From assembly GCA_004764695.1 (NCBI GenBank), contig SMSO01000025.1, positions 47,102 to 111,101 of the forward strand: DNA of 64,000 bases, read 5' to 3'. Below, one piece after another: positions 19,833 to 64,000 of this stretch. Each line of letters opens with the position of its first letter. Within the stretch, counting starts at the first letter, position 1. The position numbers and the translations under genes are program-made. This DNA is from Schizochytrium sp. TIO01 (lineage: Eukaryota; Sar; Bigyra; Thraustochytrida; Thraustochytriidae). Below the pieces are notes generated by a model. The model did not search any database. It was not told the origin of the DNA and worked only from the letters and a program-made list of their open reading frames with translations.

Positions 19833-22800
19833 TCAACCGCTAGTGTTGCCGTTTGTTAGTGCAGAGACATTAAATTTACGGATCACTGCTCCACTGCGAC
19901 GTCTACCGTGAAGTTTGGCTTTGCCATTGGAAGCGTCCATCCACTGCAGCATTGAAAGACTGGGCCCGTCTGTGTCACTACAACCACCATGGGAAAACTT
20001 GGAGCAGGCAATTCGCTCTAAGACCAATAGCCATGATGGGAGATCAAGAAGGCTAGTGGTGCTTGAATAAGCCAGTATTTCTTGATAGAGTTCTCTAAGC
20101 TGGCCTCGTCCCACCAGAGATGGCATGATATCAAAGTCGCTGCACATTTGCACAAGTGCATCCCACTCTATCCCTTCGCGAATTTGATGTACCATCGTTC
20201 GATGATCAAGGGAGGATCGCTGCTGGGCTCGAGGATCCCGTTCACGCTTTGCATACTGAGAAAACATATCTTTGAGAGGCTTGCGTTCACGCCGCCACAC
20301 CTTTGACTGGAGAAACTCACCTGCACTCTGTGGTCGGGCATTTTCATCATCGCTATCTACGTTCCGTTCGATGCTCGGGCTCGCATGAATCTCATATCCA
20401 TCTGCGCGGCCTGCATGAAGACCAATCTGTGCCTTAATCATAGTAGACGGTTGTTGATGCTCCTGACGCTGGTGCTGACTCAACGCATCCAATGAATGAG
20501 AAACTGGGGTCAGCTCTCGTTTGCGTAAGACTACTCCAAGCTTGTTGTTTACATAGCGAATGAAAGCCTCGTGCTGTAACAGAGACTCCATCCCATCTAC
20601 TGTGCCGCATGTGGATGATGCGCAGTGATCCAATACAGCTGCAAAGGCTACTGCATCCAACTTTCCTCGACGGCTAGACTGGTCAGCGAAGCTAGAGAAA
20701 ATGACGTCGCAATTGGCACGTGTGAAGCGATGAGGAAGAATTTCTGTCTTGCGTACAAAGTTGTACATGCTCGTAAAAGAAATGGCAGGTGGCGGGCCAT
20801 CGTCCGGTTGCAATGCTATGAAGATTTCACGCCAAGGTTCCTGTTCCATCAAATTACGTTTACCAGTACCCCCGGTAGATGGGCGCTGCACCTCGAGCCT
20901 CTTTGGAGTTTTAGGACCTGCTTGAGGTGAGCTATTAGAAAAGTTGCTTGTGCTGTTGTGTCCTTTTCTAAGCCCCGGCATCGATGCTGCAGAGGATGGT
21001 CGGATAGAATAATTCCTTGGGGATAAAGCTAACGGATTGCCAGCCAATGTGTGCTCAAGTCTTGCTACTTGAGTTTGCAGTTGCAAACGATCCCCCTCAG
21101 TGCGTTCCAGACGTTCCTCGAGGCGCGAACGCGACGCCGTGAGTGCCTTGATCACCATGCGATATTCAGTCTCCAACTGTGACTTGATAAGCTCTGTTCG
21201 GTGAGTTTGGTCCCTCGATGCTTCTTTCCTTTCGTCTGCAAGGGCAGTTTTCAAACGTTCAAGCTGCCCTCGAAGAGCATCAACTCCGTGCGGCCCGTTT
21301 TCCTCTTCACGTTCATTTTTCAGTTGTTCAATAATTTCTTCCTGAGTCTGGACTATAGAACATGCTTCTTCGTACTCGCGAGTCATATTTTCCAGTTTCT
21401 GTGCTGTGTTTTGAGCGTCAAGCTCTCTTGTATGTGTTCGATTTTCCATGTGAACAATCTCGTTTCGTAAAGCTTGACTCTCTGCACGGGACTGTCCAAG
21501 ATTTGTGCGTGTTATATCCAACTCACCCTCAAGATTCTTGATTCGATCGATTGCATTCTCTAACTCTGCAAACGTGCCATCGGAGTGCTTCTTATCCAAC
21601 CGAAGTGACGCGAGTTCGCCTTCGAGATTTGCTCGTTCATTGCGTTCTCGAGCGAGGGCGCGTCGAAGTTCTTCCAGTTCCTCTGTTTCAGGCAAGAGAC
21701 TAGTTTTTCTGGGTGAGATACAATCGCGATTCACTTCATCTGCAGCAAAATCAAGAGCCTCCTTCAGTGTAGCTACCTCTTCTTGTAGGGAAAGATTATT
21801 CTCTTCGAGGTCTTGGTTGACTTCAAGAAGACGTCTACCCTTCACGTTCGTGGTCCTCTTGATTTCGCTTGAGAACCACGATCTCCTCTTCAAGAGCTGT
21901 TGCATCAGCCCAGCTCTTTTGTAGGTTGTTCAACTGCTCCTCTAACTCTGCTGCTCTATCAGCTTTCGCTTGAATTTCCAAAAGCTTATTTTGTAAATCA
22001 TTCAAGTTCCCACGCAGATTTTGGTTCTCTCGTTCAAGTTGATGATTTTCCTTGTTTTGTTGCTCTTGTGTTTGCTTTAAGGTGAGTTGAAGGTTTGCTG
22101 ATGTAGCTTTAGCTTGGTTTTCAAGTCTTGAGAGCTGTTCAATTTTTGTCTGTGTTGAGGCAAACTCTTCTTCAAGCTTTCTGTACCGAGACTCCCATTC
22201 TTTGGCTTCGTAGCTCCCCTCCGTAGCCGCTGCAGATGCCTTTTCATTCGCCATAGCCAGCTCTGCTTCCAAGCGCTCGACAGACTCAGCCTTCGACCTC
22301 CACAAGGCGACACTCTGTTTCAAGGTCTCGCACTCGGTGCTAAGCTCCTTCTCAGCTGAACTGTGAGTATCTTGAACTGCCCTCAGCTTGTCATTGACAG
22401 TGTTTTGCTCACGTTCGAGATCATTCTCAGCCACGCGATACCTGTTCTGTGCCTCAAGAAGCTGCTCTTGCTTTTCGAGAAGCTCCTTTGCTTGCTTCAT
22501 GACAGTTTCTTCGAGGTTAGTAAGTTTGGCACGAGCCTCACCGAGCTCCTTCTTTGCTTCATCTTGACTTTGCTGCTGACTTGCTGTTGCTTTGGCTAGT
22601 TGTGTCCGAAGATCGTCGAGCCTTTGCGCCATTTCTTGAGATCTGTTATGGAGAAGACTCTGGGTGGACTCTGATTCCAAAAGCTTGGCCTTGAGGTCCT
22701 GCATATCACTAACTTGCGAAGTGTACTGAGACATAGCCTTTTCTTTCTCACATGTTACCAGTACTAACTTCTCCTCTGTATCTTTTAATTGTTGCTGAAG

Positions 22801-42684: not shown

Positions 42685-43288
42685 TTGAAACCTGAGATCC
42701 TCCATGGCCAGCACTCCAGTTCTCAATCATAATGAGTTCCCGCCCTTTCTATTATTTTAGCACTAGTAAATGCGAGTACATACAATGTTCACTCCTTTTG
42801 TAATGATCAATTTCAACCAAATACCAAGGATGGTGGTGTTGCTGAACATGTACCACAAAACTCAGAAACTCCAGCCACTCTGTGGTCATAAGACCGCTTT
42901 ATCTTCAAAGTCCCAAATTGTACTTATAATTTCCACAATAACTTCGATTGTGGCCTGATCTGCGATGTGTCATCCATGTAATCTATCGTAGCAGTCACGT
43001 TGATAACATCGCTTTTAAAACAACGCCAGTTTAGCATGTGAAGAACAGCTTGTTCAACATTGTTCGGCATTGCATTGTGTATGTGATCTCGGTGTTTATA
43101 GCCGTGCTCATTAGTGAGCTCACGTGCAGGAAGTCCTCTAAGAAAACATTTATTTGAATTTATCGGCGGGTAGCAAAGCTCAATACTTTTTAAGAACTAC
43201 TATTATCAATAGATTATATTCCGTATCAATAAAATTTTGTGACTATCCCAAACTAGGATCAGGCATACTTTTTATTTTATTATTCTCG
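42685..43288. other. Convergent 3' flank between the small protein and the STAND ATPase
   Basis: No gene. TTTATT words at 43271-43280 are AATAAA on the minus strand, 10-20 bases beyond the stop of the STAND gene, and are a plausible polyadenylation signal. Confidence 0.45.
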
Positions 43289-46200
43289 CTACGCAAAGAA
43301 ATCATTGCTTTCTTGGTCCTCTGACGCTTCGGAGCAAAGAGAATTTGCGGTTGTTCGGGTGGAGATCTTTCCAGTTTTTTTCTTAACAATGCGTTTCTTT
43401 GTTTTAAGCTTTGATCCCAACCCGAAACCACTCGTTGACCCACTCAGCATAAACGGCGATGCAGCACCATGATCGTTTAAATACGATTCCATTAAATCAG
43501 TTACGTCTAGGCCTCCACATAAAGCATTGTAAAGCTCCTCTGTCCCTTCTGGCCGAACACTACTTAGAACGTAACGAGCAAAATCCTGATTACGAGCTCT
43601 AAGAATTGCAGGCAACATTACTTTAACCAAACGAGCATCTTCACAAAGGTTTGGAACCCGGGAAGTGAGAAATTCTAACACAGGGACATTGTCAAACGCG
43701 GCAAAGTTGCGGACGCATGCCTCGAGATTGTCAATTCCTCGCACAATCTCTTGCAGGCGTGGAACATCAAAGAGTAGCTGAAGAATGGGCAAGCCTTTTG
43801 TCATTTGCAAAGGACTTTGTGATAAATTTAACATCGCTTGGTTCAGCATCGAACTATCAATGTATTCAATTATTGACTGATGCTGCAATAATACACGAGT
43901 TACGTTGAGGAAAGGTTTACGAAATGCCAATTCAATGCACGATTCGCCTCGATCTGAATGATTCTCGCGGCCTATTTTCTCACCAGGCAGTCTCAATAAA
44001 AACTCCACAACCCGGCTTCGACCGCTAAAGCAACCCACCAATAGAGGAGTATATCCCATACGAGCGTCACCTATGTTCAAAATAGCACCAGCATCACTCA
44101 AGGCATTAAGTGATCGCACTCCATTCATTCTGGCTGCTAGCCATGCAGGAGAGACAGTCTGGCCATCGATTTCGATTGACTCATTAGGGTCTGCACCTTG
44201 GGCTAGGAGATATTCTGTCACAGAAGCTTTACCCCACTTGATTGCAGCACCCAAGAGTGTTAAATCTTCTTTGCGAGAGCCAATTGTAAGACGAACGCGA
44301 TGCAGGTTTAAAAATTCGCGGATGTCAGCTGCTCGCCCCGCTTTGATCTCTGAGCGAGCAATTGCTGCAAGAGCGTCAACACATCCTGACTTTGCCGCAA
44401 GGTACGCAGCACTTGCTCCACCTTCAGAGAATACACTAGAGTCTGCTCCTCGACTCAAGAGAAAGTCAACAATCTCTGGTCTTCTAGCGCTACAAGCTAC
44501 AAGTAAGGGAGTATAGCCATTTGATTTCCGTTGATTAACTTCTGCTCCTCCTGAATCAACAAGAACGCGGACCATATCCAACATGCCAGTACGGCTCGCC
44601 TCATACAATGCAGTACGCCCTTGGTCTCTTTCGCAAGTAAAGTGAACATCGCTACCTCGGTCAAGGAGGAGCTGTAAGACATCTGGGTCCTTGCCTGTTG
44701 CTGTACAATGCATCAAGACGCTCCATCCGGTGCTAGGACTCTCTGTACAAGACGACAGGCCAACAAGTGGATCCGTCAACAAGCGAACTACAAAGCTAGC
44801 AAATTGAGCGGATCCGGCGGCAACACAAAGCAATTCATCGCGAGCAATTTTAGATAACACTTCTTGAACGAAAACTCGTCGCAATTGCGGGCTCAAATTC
44901 TCAATGAGAAATGCAAGAAATGCAAGATTGCATTCCACAAGATTGACATCTTTTGCACTATCAAGCTTGGTACATAGTGCAGATACTTGTCGTAGATTGT
45001 TCCTATTGTTAGGGACTTTAACCTTTTGAAGTAAAGCCGATGTTAGCGCATGGATGCGCTCTGTGCTGTTTTCATCGCTCTCATTATTAAGTCGACGAGT
45101 CACTTCCTCGTCTAGTTTTGTGACTTCTTCATTCACTTTATCGCTCACCAAACGACGCTTTAACTCGTTCAAGAGCTGCGGAGAGCTCAGCAGTGGTCCG
45201 TTGCCCAACGAAGTTGGGTTGGCGAAACAAATCGCGAACCAGCTGCTGAAGGGATTGCTTGGTTGTACATTTTGATGCTGCATAGTTTGCTGCTAAAAAC
45301 GCTTGCGCATTACCACTCAAAAACGTGTACTCTCGCTCTGTTACTCGTTGATTTCGGTCACGGCAACGGAGAAGCGGATGGGCGTCTAAATGGACTGATT
45401 CAAGCAGTGAATTTAGCCCTCGGGCTAGGTTTGTAGTGGAAAGTAGTCCAACATCAACATTTTCCTGGAGCATGTACCAACCCATCTCAAATTGTAACTC
45501 ATCAACCATAGCTTTTAGGACTGCGTCTATTTTGAAAAACCCAGTCTCGATTCCATGTAGCTGTACATAGAAGGCAATATGAGCAAGAACTCGCTTAAAA
45601 GAGATATGTTCACCGCCCGAAAGACGCAACGGGGCTAAGTTGTGGTCAATTAGAGATGAGAATAATGCACTCGTAGAGAGTGCGTCTTCAGCTTCTTGGC
45701 GAAGAGCCATTTTCGATTCTTTCTCTTTGTGCAGTTCCTTTTTTTCCTCCACCGTGCCTCCTTTCTCTTCTGCTAGCGTTTTCCTGGAAGAAAACACGTT
45801 TTCATTCGTTTCTTTGTTGTTGAACCGTGCAAGAACAGATGTCAAAAGTAATGATACTTGAAGAGCATCCTGACAGAGGTAATAGTCGCGGAAAATTGCA
45901 TCCATAATTTCCTTCCGTGGAGGAGCTCGAAGGTAGTTTTCTGCAAATGCAAGAACATGTTGGCTTTGTAAAGGTTGCAAACCGATATGAATAAAACCTG
46001 CATGTTGTACCATATGCCGGATCTGCCCATTAAGTGGACGAGTTGCCACAACCAAACGAAACGAACCTAATTGTGTAGACTCTCCTCCCACGGAGTCTGA
46101 TACTTCAGTACGACCTGCAAATGTATCATCTTCGCTCGTTTCCGATGCGTCACTAGTGGAGTTTGCCTCAGATTCAGTCTCATCTAGCAGGGGCCGAGAT

Positions 46201-48759
46201 AACCTAATCAACGTCGTAAGCAACGGAGTCCATGAGTCTGCTGCTTGACTAATACCATCGCACAACAGTACTAATCGCCCTTGCGCGCGCGCACGACGGA
46301 GCATTGCAGTGCGTAAAGCTCGTTCACCATACCTTGCTTCCCAAAATGCGTCGACAATATCTAAATTATTAGTAGCACTGTCTTCTGAATGCTCAAGTCT
46401 ATCGACCCATGGTGCTAGTTCAACTGCATTTACAACATAGGGGACAAGGTTTGTCAGAGCGATTAGTCTCGTCACGAGCAGAGAAAGCAAAAGAGTTTTG
46501 CCCATGCCACTACTACCAATGATGGCAAGACGACCACACATTGAAGCATCCGTGACTTCTTCGTGTAACAGAAAGATCTTTGTGAAATCTACATCGAGAC
46601 GCTCAGAGCTTGATGTCTCTGGTATGGAAACAATCGCATTATATGCATCTGCCATACGTGTAGAGATTGGGAGGCGCTCACATGTGACAGCATCGGTATA
46701 AAATGCATGTTTCAGCCTGCATGTAGTTCTATACTTGGCTTCCACTGCCTCTAAATCAAGAGCAGCGAAAGAATCATTATTAGATGGCGAATAGCGTGCA
46801 GTTGGAGGCGGACCCTCGTTTGCAAGGATAGCCTGGGCATGCAGAATACAGAACTGTAGCGCCCAAAGTTTCCCTGCATTACTAACATCTGGATAGCGTA
46901 ACACATCGAGTGTATACGCAAGCAATGCAAATGCATGCTGTGACTGTTTACCTACACCCTGGGTTAGATCTGCAGCAAACTGCCGCAGACGCGTCATTGC
47001 AACAAATACCGGCTCAAGACCTGGCACCGGTAGCGGATTGTGAATAAAGTTCAGCGCATGGTTAATTGTCAGCTCATCGAGGAGAGGTGTATACTCGAAT
47101 AAAAGGCAAGTCTCGAGTTTGGCTAGGTCCCGCACAATGTGACTTTCGTCGAAATCTGCAAAATCAATAATCCAAGCCATGCCCATGGCGTCAACAAGTA
47201 CATTGTTTCCGTTCAAATCGTTATGTTGTAGCCCAAAGTATACTTCATCGCTGCCATCGACCTGCTGTAGAAATTTTTGAAAGAATCGCAATATACCCTC
47301 AGGGGTGCGAAACTCACCGCCACTAATTCTTAATCGATCGAGATCCAAATTCTTCAACATACCAAAGTTGTTGAAAATATTGCGTTGGACTTTCTTTTCC
47401 AGTTCATAAACTTTGACAAGGTCGACCATGACTTTATGTTTCGTTTTATCATAACATTTTGCCATTACTTCTCCGAACACCATAGAAAGCAGATCTTCAA
47501 AGTCCATGACAAAATGACGAGCCGATGGCGGGAGCCGTGGGGCAGCAAGTGACCCAATGTTATTATGTTTGTCAAGGGCGTTAGCGTTGTTTTGCGAAAC
47601 TGTCGTGCGAGGGTTACTTTTGAACTGCATTTTGTAGAGTGATTTCAATGTCAGAATCAAGGTTGAGTTTTCTTTCACAAAACGAGGCAACGTCCAGCAG
47701 GCCCCACATAGTTGAATGCGAACAGCCGCACAACCACCAGAGCTAGTATATCCCAAGACTGTTGGCGCACTGTCACCTAGATAAGGAGCAGCAACTTCCA
47801 TGCGGTCGACCTCACTCTGAAGTTCATGCACCTCATCCATTTTAACGACGCTTTGTTCTTCTTCCACGTCTTCCTGGGACCAAGATCGACAACGAAAGAC
47901 TGAAGCTGACGAAAACCCGCCCGCAAGGACATCAAGCTCAACACGAACAGAGTTTTCAAAAAGATTTGACACCATAGACTCAATCAACTTCTTTCGGGGG
48001 AAAAGGGTATTCGGGGCATTCAACCCAGTCAACACGTGCGGGAGGTCTTTGGTGGCCTTCGTCAAATGATGCAAGCCGATGACGCAGCATGGAGGGTTCA
48101 GCAACTTCATTCTCTAGCACATGCTGCCACGAGCAAATATGGGCGCTGCAATCATGAACGAGGTAAAAGGGACTGGTTTGGATTTTGCTACCAGAAAGAT
48201 GCACTATGTGATCATCTTTTTTCGCCGTCTCCCGGATTGTTTGCAACTCGTAATCATCTACCAAGCTTTCGAGTAATATACCAAATTCATATTCCGTACT
48301 AGGGAAACCGTCTGTGCTCTCAAATAAACCTCGCCGTAAGCTGAGGTGCGAGTTGACCCGTTGTTCCTTCCATTCAACTACTGGTATTTGTTCATGCTTG
48401 TTTTCCTTTGTATTTGAGCCAGAGTATTGTTCTACAAACTCTTTCGCAAAGGCGTAAACATCATCTGGCTGCTTTTGAACAATCTTCTCCAAGAGTTCAC
48501 GAAGAATTGGAGCTGTTCTTTCTCGCAAGCTGGCGTCGGATCCGCATCGATATCGTGCTCGATCCTTTATCGTAGTTTCTCGTCCATCAGTGAACCACAT
48601 TCGAATAAATTGTAAAGGATCTTCGCTCGGCCTCAGGTACAACCGCAAGTCCATCAAAAGAGATCGAATAATTGAATTGGCCTCTCTATGGTTGAGAGTT
48701 TGCGCCAGGGCTTGGGAACCTCTTCGAGGGTTTGTCCCGTCTGCATGGGACAAGTCCAT
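43289..48759 (-). CDS. STAND/NLR-like ATPase: RIIa-like, TCAD9-like kinase fold, NACHT, ankyrin repeats
   Basis: Three long overlapping frames join into one gene. The ATG at 48759 follows an in-frame stop. A phase-0 model is 48025-48759, 45240-47987, 43289-45175, giving 1789 residues. Domains in order: an RIIa-type dimerisation helix pair near residues 80-112 (ILRELLEKIVQKQPDDVYAF); a TCAD9/APH-like kinase fold with AGGFSSASVF loop, VVK lysine, HNDLNGNNVLVD catalytic loop and IIDFADF metal site; NACHT with Walker A GSSGMGKT, Walker B LVLLCDG and sensor VVATRP; an acidic insert between the last two; a helical stretch; then about eight ankyrin repeats (NGYTPLLVACSARRPEIVDFLL). The C-terminus is basic then acidic. 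In known families NACHT drives oligomerisation and ankyrins sense a ligand, with the N-terminal part as effector or adaptor. The two joins need a +1 frame change: introns of 37 nt and 64 (or 34) nt, or base errors. Confidence 0.82.
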
Positions 48760-49741
48760 CTCTGGCTAAACAGCGTACAACCCAGTCAATAGGGTTTCAG
48801 GTATTCTTGTAGTTTCGTTCCTGCGTTTTGATGACTCCAGTGTCACATCAGAATGAACGTGCTGTAGCTCTGCTCAGCTCATCTGCAGAATTGAAATATT
48901 CCATGAAAATGTAACACTTGGTATGGCAACGGTATTGAATATGAAGGATTAGTAGTAGTACTTATTGTTTTAGCCTGGACGCTCTTTTAAAAAGCTATAA
49001 GGAGCGCTCACTGGGCTGGGTTAAACAAAGAGGCGAAAGTAATGAAGATTTACATCCATTGTGACTTCGAGGTGCAATATTTAAGGCAACTCTGGACGAG
49101 GAATATGTCTTCATTAGTCTGGTACTGATTAAATGAGAAAGTTGTGAAATAAAAATAAAAATATATTCTAATCAAAAGATGACAAATGAAATTTATAGCG
49201 CAAATTATGAGACGGTATTCAAGAGTCATTTGTCTCAAAGCCGCACACCCGGTCATAATTGGTAGTACTATTGCTATCGCTCCAATCATGCAGCACCTCG
49301 AACCACCCACACCTTCAGTGGGTAAGAAAGTTTGTGAAAAAAGAAAAGAAAAAAAGACTACATCGCCATAATGATCACATTAGGGAAAACAAGAAGAGCT
49401 ATAAATGGCCAGGTAAAACAATATTGGCTTTAGATACGCTTGCAATTCTCCTATTTTTGTGAAATTGGGCTCGCGGAATATGTGACTAGCAAGTTCTTAA
49501 GATAAAGCGCTGATCAGAGCTATTCATTCCAACGTATTGTGTTGTGGAATAATTGGTTTCATAGAAAAACAGCAAGATGTATTTGTTCATTATCATGGCA
49601 CTACTCGCAGAAAGGACCAGCACAGCACACGGACAAAAGATTGAGGATAGTTATACCTCCTTTTGATTTAGAATTATAAGACAATATTGAGCATTGCAGA
49701 GCTCATTTCCGGAATTTGAAATTAAATGTCACCAGGACAAG
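48760..49741. other. Intergenic region
   Basis: No gene seen. It carries the promoter side of the STAND ATPase and the 3' flank of presenilin, both on the minus strand. An AT-rich patch lies at about 49140-49190. Confidence 0.45.
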
Positions 49742-61372: not shown

Positions 61373-61664
61373 TTCAATAAAGTGCATTCTCAAGTAGGTG
61401 TAGCAAATGAACTCTTAGCAGCCAGCCTTCTAAAGATTTGATGGTGTTTTGCTTCGCTTGAGAATTGTTGACGCTTGGGTCTGTTTGTACTTAGCTAGCA
61501 TCTATTCAACTTGCATATGGTACTACAATTCGAATCGAAAACTAATGCTGCCCGCGAAAACCAAGCAAACCTGAAATACCTTCAGGCTCAGCGTACGTCG
61601 ATACCGCTGTGCAGAAAAGCAGCATCGAGGAAGACTAGTACGTGGAGTACACAGTAGGGGTACA

Positions 61665-64000
61665 ATGCGCTATCTATCGGTCACCGTGCTCCTAGCACTT
61701 GTGGCAATTACAAAGGCAGCTGAGCTTTCCGCAACAAATCTCACTGCAATTGGCACAAATGCCACAGCAAAAATCGTCAATGGCATTACGGCAAACGCCG
61801 AGACTACGGAATGGGTCGTAAGCCTTCGGACGATGAGCGACTTTCATTTCTGTGGTGGATCTTTAATTGCTCCTGGATGGGTTCTTACTGCTGGCCACTG
61901 CGCAGATCGTATACGTATCCCAGGGCCCCTTTCAGACTCTCACTATGTTACGAACACCTATGCCTACATTGGGCAACACGTTCTCCACGGCCCGATAGAC
62001 CCTTCCCGTCAAGCGCGTCGTGTTGTTGAAGTTTACATTCACCCACAATTTGACCCTGATGAGCTCACCTATGATGTTGCCCTTCTTCGGCTCGACCGTG
62101 ATGTGGAGGGTGTCACACCAGTGAATATTCTTCATGCTGACGAATTAGAAATTGAAGGGCTCATGCTCACCGTGACTGGATGGGGTACCGAAGATGCAGT
62201 CATTGTAAAAAGGAGAGACAAAACTGGCAAACTAGTTATTGTCAATGATAATGAGCGCGGTGAAAGCAAAAAAAAACATTCCAAAGTCCAGGTGCAAAAT
62301 GATACTGATACTGATTCTCTTTCCGAAGATTATGGCGATGATAACGACAATGATGATACAAAAGACAGCAAGTATTACGGCATTGAATACTGGTCAAGCT
62401 TCTACTACTCCTCTGAGCTGAGCGTGAGAACCCTTAAAAGCGCCACGGTCCCCTTTGTACCGTACAAGGCGTGTACTCGGTCAGGCTCATACCAAAAGTC
62501 AGATATATCCAAACAGACAATGATTTGCGCTGGTTATATTGAAGGAGGCACGGATTCATGTCAAGGAGATAGCGGTGGACCTTTGTATCTAGACGGTGGA
62601 GCAGGCAACCAGTTCCTTGTTGGCACTGTATCTTGGGGTTACGGATGCGCATCTCCAAAATACTATGGTGTATATGGTCGCGTATCTGCATTTGCTTCTT
62701 GGATTCAAAGCTACGTATCAGAGGGTCTTAAGACAGGAGACGTCCCAGCTGCATTGCTCGTTGTAAGCCCAACACCAAAGCCAACGTCTCCACCAAAGTA
62801 TAGTTCCAAGGTCATTGCAAAATCCAAGCATGTCAGACTAATGGGTTCAAACCCTGGTTATTTGTTTGTCAAAACGAAGGGCTCTAGTTCCTTTCGTTCG
62901 GCTTTAGCTGATACACGCTTCAGTGATACAGAAGCACGTGTCGCATGCAGAGAACTAGGATTCAGTGATGGTTTGTACCGCTGGGATCTTCACAATGACT
63001 TCGAAAAACTACCCTCCAAGATTAGTACATTTAGTGCACCATTTCGCTGCAAAGGCAACGAGTCAAGTTTGCTCGATTGTCCCCTCGGAACTCTACCCTC
63101 AGACTATTATTGGACTGTTTATTATGATGAACAATACCCAGCCATAATAGAATGCGTCGCAACCCAAGTTCCGACCCGCGCGCCAGTCGCTCTGGAAATT
63201 CCCATTTCGTCAACATCCGCGGATATACTTGCGCAGAGCGAAACTACTCGTCTGCGCATAGTCTCCGAGATCTATCCTGAACTCGCACTTTTAGAAGTGG
63301 CCAAGGATGGGGAGTGGGGAATTGTGTGTCCTACGAACTGGAGAGGAGACATTGGAACCAAGGCAAAAAACGTTGCTTGTAGGGACCTTGGATACCTTGG
63401 GGGGTCGTATTTTAGTTTTGTTCCATCTGACTCCACCGTCACATCGTCGGTCAATGTGGCATACGGTGATATTATCTGTGACGGTTCAGAGCCAAATCTT
63501 TTGGCATGCGAGATTCGGGTGTCCACTGAGTGCGACCCCCTCACCGATGCAGTTTACGTAGAATGCTATAATGAGACTGATTCCCCAACGCCAGCTCCTA
63601 CTCAGATGGTCACAATACAAGAGAAAAGAAAAGTTTATGCTTCATCCAAAAAAACGCGTCTGATGTATGGCAATCCTGGTGTGCTCGAGTATCGCGAAAA
63701 TAAGTGGGGAAGTGTTTGCGAGACGAACTTCACTCTCGTCGACCGAGATGTTGCTTGCCACTCTTTTGACCTTGGTGATTCTGCACGCATGGACCTCGGT
63801 AGGATTCCTGTGGGCTTGCAATCACTATCATCAGCGTTGTCAATTCGCACAAGTGACTTTGAGTGTAACGGTTCAGAAACTTCGCTTACTAAATGTACTC
63901 ATACGACTGAACCTTGTGAAGAGGCTTACACCGTACTGGAATGCCTCGAATCTGAACGACCTGCTGCTGTTACCAAATTGGTACTTTCCGAACCTACAAC
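61665..64000 (+). CDS. Secreted trypsin-like serine protease with three SRCR domains (3' end outside window)
   Basis: One open frame from the ATG at 61665 to the window edge, 778 residues so far with no stop. Residues 1-19 are a signal peptide. The S1 peptidase domain begins at about 37 (KIVNG, a plausible activation site) and has the full triad: His78 in TAGHC, Asp137 in TYDVALLRL and Ser303 in DSCQGDSGGP. The Asp six residues before Ser303 predicts cleavage after Lys or Arg. A roughly 70-residue insert with an Asp/Asn-rich block separates GWGTE from the next conserved strand. A Pro/Thr-rich hinge leads to three SRCR-like domains at about 389-505, 528-635 and 664-762, each with paired Cys (for example WGIVCPTNW, VACRDLGY, CEIRVSTEC) and separated by Pro/Thr linkers. 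SRCR domains bind ligands in animal receptors and proteases. It is probably secreted or cell-surface. Confidence 0.92.
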   Translation, partial: MRYLSVTVLLALVAITKAAELSATNLTAIGTNATAKIVNGITANAETTEWVVSLRTMSDFHFCGGSLIAPGWVLTAGHCADRIRIPGPLSDSHYVTNTYAYIGQHVLHGPIDPSRQARRVVEVYIHPQFDPDELTYDVALLRLDRDVEGVTPVNILHADELEIEGLMLTVTGWGTEDAVIVKRRDKTGKLVIVNDNERGESKKKHSKVQVQNDTDTDSLSEDYGDDNDNDDTKDSKYYGIEYWSSFYYSSELSVRTLKSATVPFVPYKACTRSGSYQKSDISKQTMICAGYIEGGTDSCQGDSGGPLYLDGGAGNQFLVGTVSWGYGCASPKYYGVYGRVSAFASWIQSYVSEGLKTGDVPAALLVVSPTPKPTSPPKYSSKVIAKSKHVRLMGSNPGYLFVKTKGSSSFRSALADTRFSDTEARVACRELGFSDGLYRWDLHNDFEKLPSKISTFSAPFRCKGNESSLLDCPLGTLPSDYYWTVYYDEQYPAIIECVATQVPTRAPVALEIPISSTSADILAQSETTRLRIVSEIYPELALLEVAKDGEWGIVCPTNWRGDIGTKAKNVACRDLGYLGGSYFSFVPSDSTVTSSVNVAYGDIICDGSEPNLLACEIRVSTECDPLTDAVYVECYNETDSPTPAPTQMVTIQEKRKVYASSKKTRLMYGNPGVLEYRENKWGSVCETNFTLVDRDVACHSFDLGDSARMDLGRIPVGLQSLSSALSIRTSDFECNGSETSLTKCTHTTEPCEEAYTVLECLESERPAAVTKLVLSEPT

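Follow-up and report, generated by a model that had tools for sequence, protein, structure and literature searches.

Organisation of the locus

The window analysed here is a stretch of 64,000 nucleotides (nt) from contig SMSO01000025.1 of Schizochytrium sp. TIO01, in which a gene located at 48759-43289 on the minus strand is split over three overlapping open reading frames (ORF1, ORF2 and ORF3). Together with three other genes it probably makes up a family of NLR-like STAND proteins, in which a TCAD9 kinase domain is followed by a NACHT domain and by repeats. The four sets of motifs that the initial annotation had placed one after the other on a single strand were all located, on the minus strand and at the places proposed. 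The features of the gene are as follows, in window positions.

48765-47980, minus strand: ORF1, 261 amino acids (aa) from stop to stop and 259 aa from the ATG at 48759; TGA stop at 47982-47980
48525-48418, minus strand: RIIa/Dpy-30-like helix pair in ORF1, borderline match to Pfam RIIa
48000-47980, minus strand: junction 1, a +1 frame change; the best codon-usage changepoint is the TGA stop of ORF1
48113-45138, minus strand: open frame of ORF2, 991 aa, coding part 47981-45138; TCAD9, linker and NACHT
47963-46836, minus strand: TCAD9/APH-type kinase domain in ORF2, placed by its catalytic motifs, ends approximate
47921-47898, minus strand: GGFSSASV, GGFS loop of the kinase (ORF2)
47852-47832, minus strand: SVVKMDE, with the VVK lysine of the kinase (ORF2)
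From 47225, minus strand: HNDLNGNN, HxD loop of the kinase (ORF2)
47174-47151, minus strand: WIIDFADF, with the IDF aspartate of the kinase (ORF2)
46703-46671, minus strand: FYTDAVTCERL, linker motif between TCAD9 and NACHT (alignment)
46583-45834, minus strand: NACHT core (hhalign and alignment)
46517-46494, minus strand: GSSGMGKT, intact Walker A (alignment)
46277-46245, minus strand: RLVLLCDGISQ, degenerate Walker B (CDGISQ; alignment)
46058-46035, minus strand: RLVVATRP, TRP motif (ORF2)
45170-45138, minus strand: junction 2, a +1 frame change; the best changepoint lies 27 nt upstream of the TAA stop
45292-43289, minus strand: open frame of ORF3, 667 aa, coding part 45137-43289; final stop at 43291-43289
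About 44720-43850, minus strand: ankyrin repeats in ORF3 (Pfam Ank_2), ends approximate

The TCAD9 kinase domain and its gene family

ORF2 matches the Pfam TCAD9 model (PF19974) with 75.9 bits (cut-off 40, E 4.7e-21) and the APH model with 24.0 bits (cut-off 23.2). The kinase lysine, a candidate alpha-C glutamate, the HxD...N residues and the aspartate of the DF motif are invariant across the four family members, and the same catalytic residues are invariant when the window kinase is aligned with 28 bacterial relatives, the phenylalanine of DF differing in a single bacterial row. The HxD loop reads HND in the window member versus HGD in its paralogs. The modelled domain matches folds of the APH/choline-kinase type over its extent, and this part of the initial annotation is borne out by a profile score well over its cut-off and by the retained catalytic residues; the case in which no TCAD9 profile would match is excluded by the 75.9-bit score.

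When the whole genome (a 64.06 Mb assembly in 37 contigs) was searched with ORF2 and the TCAD9 model, three further loci exceeded the cut-off, on contigs C4 (L027), C13 (L028) and C30 (L029). All three are TCAD9-NACHT genes, which brings the family to four; weaker matches below the cut-off occur on C5 (24.5 bits) and at C13:5461237 (20.3 bits). L027 (2149 aa) and L029 (2238 aa) carry TCAD9, NACHT and ankyrin within one unbroken frame, and in L028 TCAD9 and NACHT occupy 1268 aa and are followed by HEAT repeats past a frame change of its own. Since two paralogs hold all three modules in a single ORF, these form one polypeptide in the family, and the TCAD9-NACHT-repeat order is, as judged from the predicted proteins, a true architecture and no artefact of three neighbouring frames. 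In the three paralogs the open frame extends for about 490-630 codons upstream of the kinase domain. Downstream of the kinase, each of the four genes encodes a linker motif, D.[VITF][ST]...[LVF].[IV], which is also found ahead of the NACHT domain of L031, a NACHT-ankyrin protein (L031:4443-8696) that has no TCAD9 match and may represent either a truncated version of the family or an ancestral one.

The same genome encodes a 1238 aa protein composed of TIR, NPHP3_N/NACHT and WD40 domains (L032:3062-6775) as well as two NWD1-like WD40 proteins, one with a NACHT match over the cut-off (L030) and one below it (L033, 24.4 bits). Together with the TCAD9-NACHT genes these fit an NLR-like repertoire.

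In the window, the neighbours of the gene are ordinary eukaryotic genes according to Pfam, namely those for a presenilin, an FKBP, an AMMECR1 protein and a trypsin-SRCR protein. The last (61575-63998) has a trypsin domain followed by SRCR matches in three stretches, a pairing that is animal-like for a protist.

NACHT domain, ankyrin repeats and N-terminus

The NACHT site of ORF2 is overlapped by matches to AAA_16 (E 6.6e-5) and AAA_22 (E 2.2e-4), both under their own cut-offs. Aligned by hhalign with the four other NACHT domains of this genome (three paralogs and L031), the region obtained a probability of 97.8 (E 7.2e-13), which supports its being a divergent NACHT. Its Walker A is intact, while the second acidic pair of the Walker B consensus hhhhDGxDE is gone, so that the domain may bind nucleotide without efficient turnover. 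The NACHT proposed in the initial annotation is supported by the hhalign result and has an intact Walker A, but its Pfam score is below the cut-off and Walker B is impaired.

The ankyrin repeats of ORF3 leave no such doubt (Ank_2, 139.7 bits in five stretches, E 4.5e-41), as had been proposed, and a lysine-rich stretch lies close to the C-terminus. The N-terminal effector and C-terminal superstructure-forming repeats that characterise STAND/NLR proteins are both found, as TCAD9 and ankyrin. Among PADLOC models, PDC-M72A and Ankyrin matched the ankyrin repeats of ORF3 and L027, and mad8 matched L027 (5.2e-5); nothing was matched for ORF2 or L028.

As for the N-terminus, Pfam RIIa (PF02197) scored 19.7 bits for the whole of ORF1 (E 6.8e-4), under its cut-off of 22.4, and exactly 22.4 bits (E 9.6e-5) when the first 120 aa were taken alone. 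The AlphaFold model of ORF1 alone is poor (mean pLDDT 44.8). It places helices in residues 11-113; the first RIIa-like helix falls within residues 31-100 (block pLDDT 67-86) and the second (98-113) is mostly below 50. Foldseek with this low-confidence model gave no match at E <= 0.001, and no RIIa chain was among the four hits of a phmmer search against the Protein Data Bank. ORF1 has no other match in its own genome at E <= 0.01; the N-termini of the four family genes are dissimilar (best E 0.096, and 3.9 for ORF1), and the RIIa-like pair was found in the window member alone. The RIIa-like helix pair of the initial annotation is thus a borderline call, reaching the cut-off on the first 120 aa but with a poor model and no counterpart in the paralogs.

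Frame changes at the two junctions

Codon usage follows the frame of ORF1 to its stop, that of ORF2 to about 45157 and then that of ORF3, with no clear non-coding gap and with switches of the preferred frame near 47993 and 45157. Parts of ORF1, chiefly the first, show a weak preference, which is firmer near the 3' end; at 45270-45225 the third frame scores equally or slightly higher. At junction 2 the best changepoint beats the stop position by 1.6 nats. An ORF2 ATG (ESMVSN) is found at 47975, 4 nt beyond the stop of ORF1.

Seven pairs of adjacent coding frames on the same strand were obtained from a scan of the window and of 15 other loci. The frames overlap in five pairs, always with a +1 shift (junctions 1 and 2, the coiled-coil gene at position 21837, L028 and L036); in the other two they are separated, with a shift of +1 across 301 nt and of 0 across 207 nt. 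The distance from changepoint to stop is 0 at junction 1, 3 nt in the coiled-coil gene, 3 nt in L028, 27 nt at junction 2 and 81 nt in L036. In two cases the best changepoint lies at the stop or 3 nt from it despite overlaps of 131 and 92 nt; the overlap in L028 is just 8 nt and hence uninformative on the position of the shift.

Outside the gene, +1-joined frames are thus seen at 21837 in the window (coiled-coil gene, 26343-19836), at L028:4443 and at L036:5622, and L060:1421 resembles such a pair, its start codon being unsure. Frameshifting by +1 at stop codons, assembly errors of the insertion type or decay might each account for these four.

Because all five overlapping pairs are +1, programmed +1 frameshifting at stops is attractive; it was not accepted, given the changepoint 81 nt before the stop in L036, the opposite sign in the ABC-transporter gene L048 and the homopolymers nearby (runs of T and C just before junction 1, and runs in L028). 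L048 shows a 1-nt deletion when compared to an 80% identical paralog, and the linker concerned probably contains another change as well. Breaks caused by introns or indels are common genome-wide, since 7 of the 18 dynein heavy-chain genes lie in open frames shorter than 3,300 aa, the other 11 exceeding 3,800 aa.

A classic intron at either junction was also judged unlikely. Probable introns of the window, read by eye, have strong signals (GTAAGT...TTTCAG, GTACGT...TTTGCAG). Fifty GT-AG pairs of a fitting length class were counted at junction 1 and 111 at junction 2, and the candidates with selected donor types are unconvincing: they cut conserved or coding-like sequence, hit a stop or have weak signals. 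Among those that might still apply at junction 2 are one with donor GTGAGC at 45148 and acceptor at 45061, which would remove coding-like sequence, and one with donor GTAACA at 45344 and acceptor at 45176, which would remove the EYTFLSG motif that matches L027. As a guess, assembly indels come first as the cause of both junctions and real decay second.

Bacterial relatives and origin of the kinase

Relatives of the kinase were sought in a collection of 84,980 prokaryote species. A search that started from the L028 kinase, with the patterns HGDLN[GA][AM]N and I[VL]W[VL]IDFA, gave 135 pattern-matched stretches, 85 of which encode a relative; the 80 loci kept are biased towards this motif. When the window kinase was the first query, no pattern stretch was confirmed among 73 from prokaryote and 54 from viral contigs, and scans of phages and plasmids found no relative. 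Closed ORFs of 590 aa or more occur in 71 of the 80 loci; 32 of these were aligned and scanned with Pfam. All 32 have TCAD9, together with a dual-specificity phosphatase in 29 and an isochorismatase in 25.

A protein of ca. 780 aa that joins an isochorismatase-like hydrolase, a TCAD9 kinase and a dual-specificity phosphatase (L062, L064, L114 and others) is widespread in bacteria. The presence of kinase and phosphatase on one chain suggests a phospho-switch whose target is a small molecule or a protein. No description of this three-enzyme protein was found among the best-ranked matches in the open-licence PubMed Central (PMC) literature.

In Chloroflexota, at least 7 of 301 sampled genomes match at E <= 1e-10, up to five candidates having been scored per genome. 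Three proteins, taken for their long open frames (932, 924 and 1155 aa) and hence not a random sample, have the domain orders Pkinase-TCAD9 (L141), TCAD9-AAA_35 (L143) and TCAD9-NB-ARC/AAA (L142), so that TCAD9 lies ahead of a STAND-type ATPase in two of the three. L141 (486-3242) has a protein kinase and a TCAD9 kinase in tandem, with a weak SH3-like match at its C-terminus.

In a tree of 31 kinases, in which long branches were flagged by the program, there is one clade of the four protist sequences (99/95) and a second that unites the 24 sequences of the isochorismatase type (86/87). Among the protist sequences, that of the window ends in the longest branch (2.43). Among the bacteria and the protist compared, capture of the kinase from bacteria followed by fusion to NACHT would be the simplest history. 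The protist and bacterial TCAD9-STAND fusions may share an ancestor, but in the tree L142 groups with the protist sequences only at 81/63, on an end branch of 9.2, and L141 and L143 stand apart.

Interpretation and alternative explanations

The gene is probably a member of a four-gene NLR-like STAND family with the predicted order variable N-terminus, TCAD9 kinase, linker, NACHT and repeats, and would act as an NLR-type receptor with a small-molecule kinase as effector; we can only infer an immune role for it. The ankyrin or HEAT repeats would bind a cue, upon which NACHT would switch and cluster and so bring the N-terminal kinase domains together. The clustered kinases might then phosphorylate a small molecule, as their fold suggests, or a protein, and the product would be the signal. 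In the window member the NACHT, with its Walker A, may work at reduced turnover, and the RIIa-like helix pair, if real, might dimerise the protein or dock it on an anchoring helix. A fuller version is speculative and rather unlikely to hold as a whole: an NLR lineage in which clustered bacterial-type TCAD9 kinases make an alarm signal from a phosphorylated small molecule, in parallel to the bacterial TCAD9-STAND proteins, the turnover-deficient window member being tethered by RIIa to a cyclic AMP or flagellar scaffold.

A receptor with a kinase-like effector, as in the initial annotation, remains the natural reading, and its domain order is shared by two bacterial TCAD9-STAND proteins; its weak points are the frame changes and the impaired Walker B. 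Several results weigh against it. The gene has two frame changes, both +1; Pfam NACHT in ORF2 scores 13.3 bits against a cut-off of 26.7 (E 0.076); CDGISQ replaces the DGxDE of all four other aligned NACHT genes; and four copies make a small repertoire. No tandem repeat was found at the DNA level at 43000-49000, nor any high-identity repeat array in the gene, in contrast to many fungal NLRs, whose repeats are strongly conserved according to a survey (PMC4986451). Neither NACHT nor ankyrin occurs at E <= 0.001 in any of the 32 scanned bacterial relatives, which are motif-selected and whose usual partners are the phosphatase (29) and the isochorismatase (25); the step from TCAD9 to a conflict system is therefore unsafe.

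The frame changes could be consensus errors in an intact gene, a view compatible with the receptor reading and to which we give an even chance. It agrees with the dynein heavy-chain genes found in shorter frames, with the deletion in the ABC gene and with the T and C runs before junction 1; however, random indels should give both signs and all five overlapping pairs are +1, and two best changepoints fall at or next to the stop despite long overlaps. Decay of the window copy into a pseudogene or hypomorph of a functional family seems unlikely: the changes at 47980 and 45138, the altered Walker B, the N-terminus with no paralog and the long end branch would all be expected, yet three long frames run for about 5.4 kb with no other stops, codon usage is coding-like up to both junctions and the kinase catalytic residues are retained. 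The frame changes are, moreover, not special to this gene because L028 and the unrelated coiled-coil gene show the same kind. That ORF1 is a separate small gene, the receptor starting at the ATG at 47975 and the RIIa-like part lying outside the protein, is quite improbable. The changepoint does coincide with the stop of ORF1, which has no paralog, and the methionine of ORF2 lies directly ahead of the kinase domain, but a distance of 4 nt between two nuclear genes of one strand would be too short for untranslated regions, the paralogs have long open frames before the kinase, and junction 2 would be left unexplained.

A further reading, that of a signalling scaffold without immune role, which would serve metabolism, trafficking or the flagellum and whose kinase would act on a metabolite, deserves some weight but is the less expected one. 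Many flagellar proteins contain RIIa domains, and 18 dynein heavy-chain genes are present in the genome; the fold is of the APH/choline-kinase type, and the bacterial relatives with isochorismatase and phosphatase look enzymatic. Against it, the order of effector, NACHT and repeats is typical of NLRs, and the TIR-NPHP3_N/NACHT-WD40 protein is encoded in the same genome.

Comparison with known systems

The effectors of NLRs include TIR, death folds, coiled coils, lipases, phosphorylases, HET and protein kinases. Part of this list comes from sections of the fungal survey (PMC4986451), in which a protein kinase is among the N-terminal domains of NACHT-ankyrin NLRs. The order of N-terminal effector, NACHT and ankyrin is thus common to the fungal proteins and to the present gene, and a kinase-fold effector class exists there; the fungal kinase is a protein kinase (PF00069), whereas that of Schizochytrium is of the TCAD9/APH type, and the sections consulted of the fungal survey do not mention TCAD9. 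A term search of a later survey (PMC9815663) found neither phosphotransferase nor APH, and kinase in the reference list alone. An APH-type kinase as an NLR effector would, if true, be a new kind of output.

Like the window gene, the Chloroflexota proteins L142 and L143 have TCAD9 N-terminal to a STAND-type ATPase, but this belongs to another family and no ankyrin occurs in the stretch examined, past which both proteins extend. Their kinases are 20.8% (L142) and 17.1% (L143) identical to that of the window. With TCAD9 ahead of STAND ATPases in Chloroflexota and also in a protist, a further effector-switch pairing would be known from both bacteria and eukaryotes. The isochorismatase-TCAD9-phosphatase proteins have the closest bacterial kinases found (22-32% identity to the window kinase) but enzyme partners, with no ATPase switch or repeats found.

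The name TCAD derives from the vWA-MoxR-VMAP ternary conflict systems (sections of PMC7159879 and PMC10910872), for which a few active kinase domains of the APH superfamily are reported as bacterial effectors (in part of PMC7159879). There the partners are vWA, MoxR and VMAP, none of which had a Pfam match in the three ORFs or in nine other ORFs of the window; here a single polypeptide would be the receptor, in a eukaryote. No TCAD9-NACHT or RIIa-NACHT protein was found among the best-ranked matches in the open-licence PMC literature, and on the strength of its predicted domains the gene is filed as encoding an NLR-like STAND protein with a putative new class of effector.

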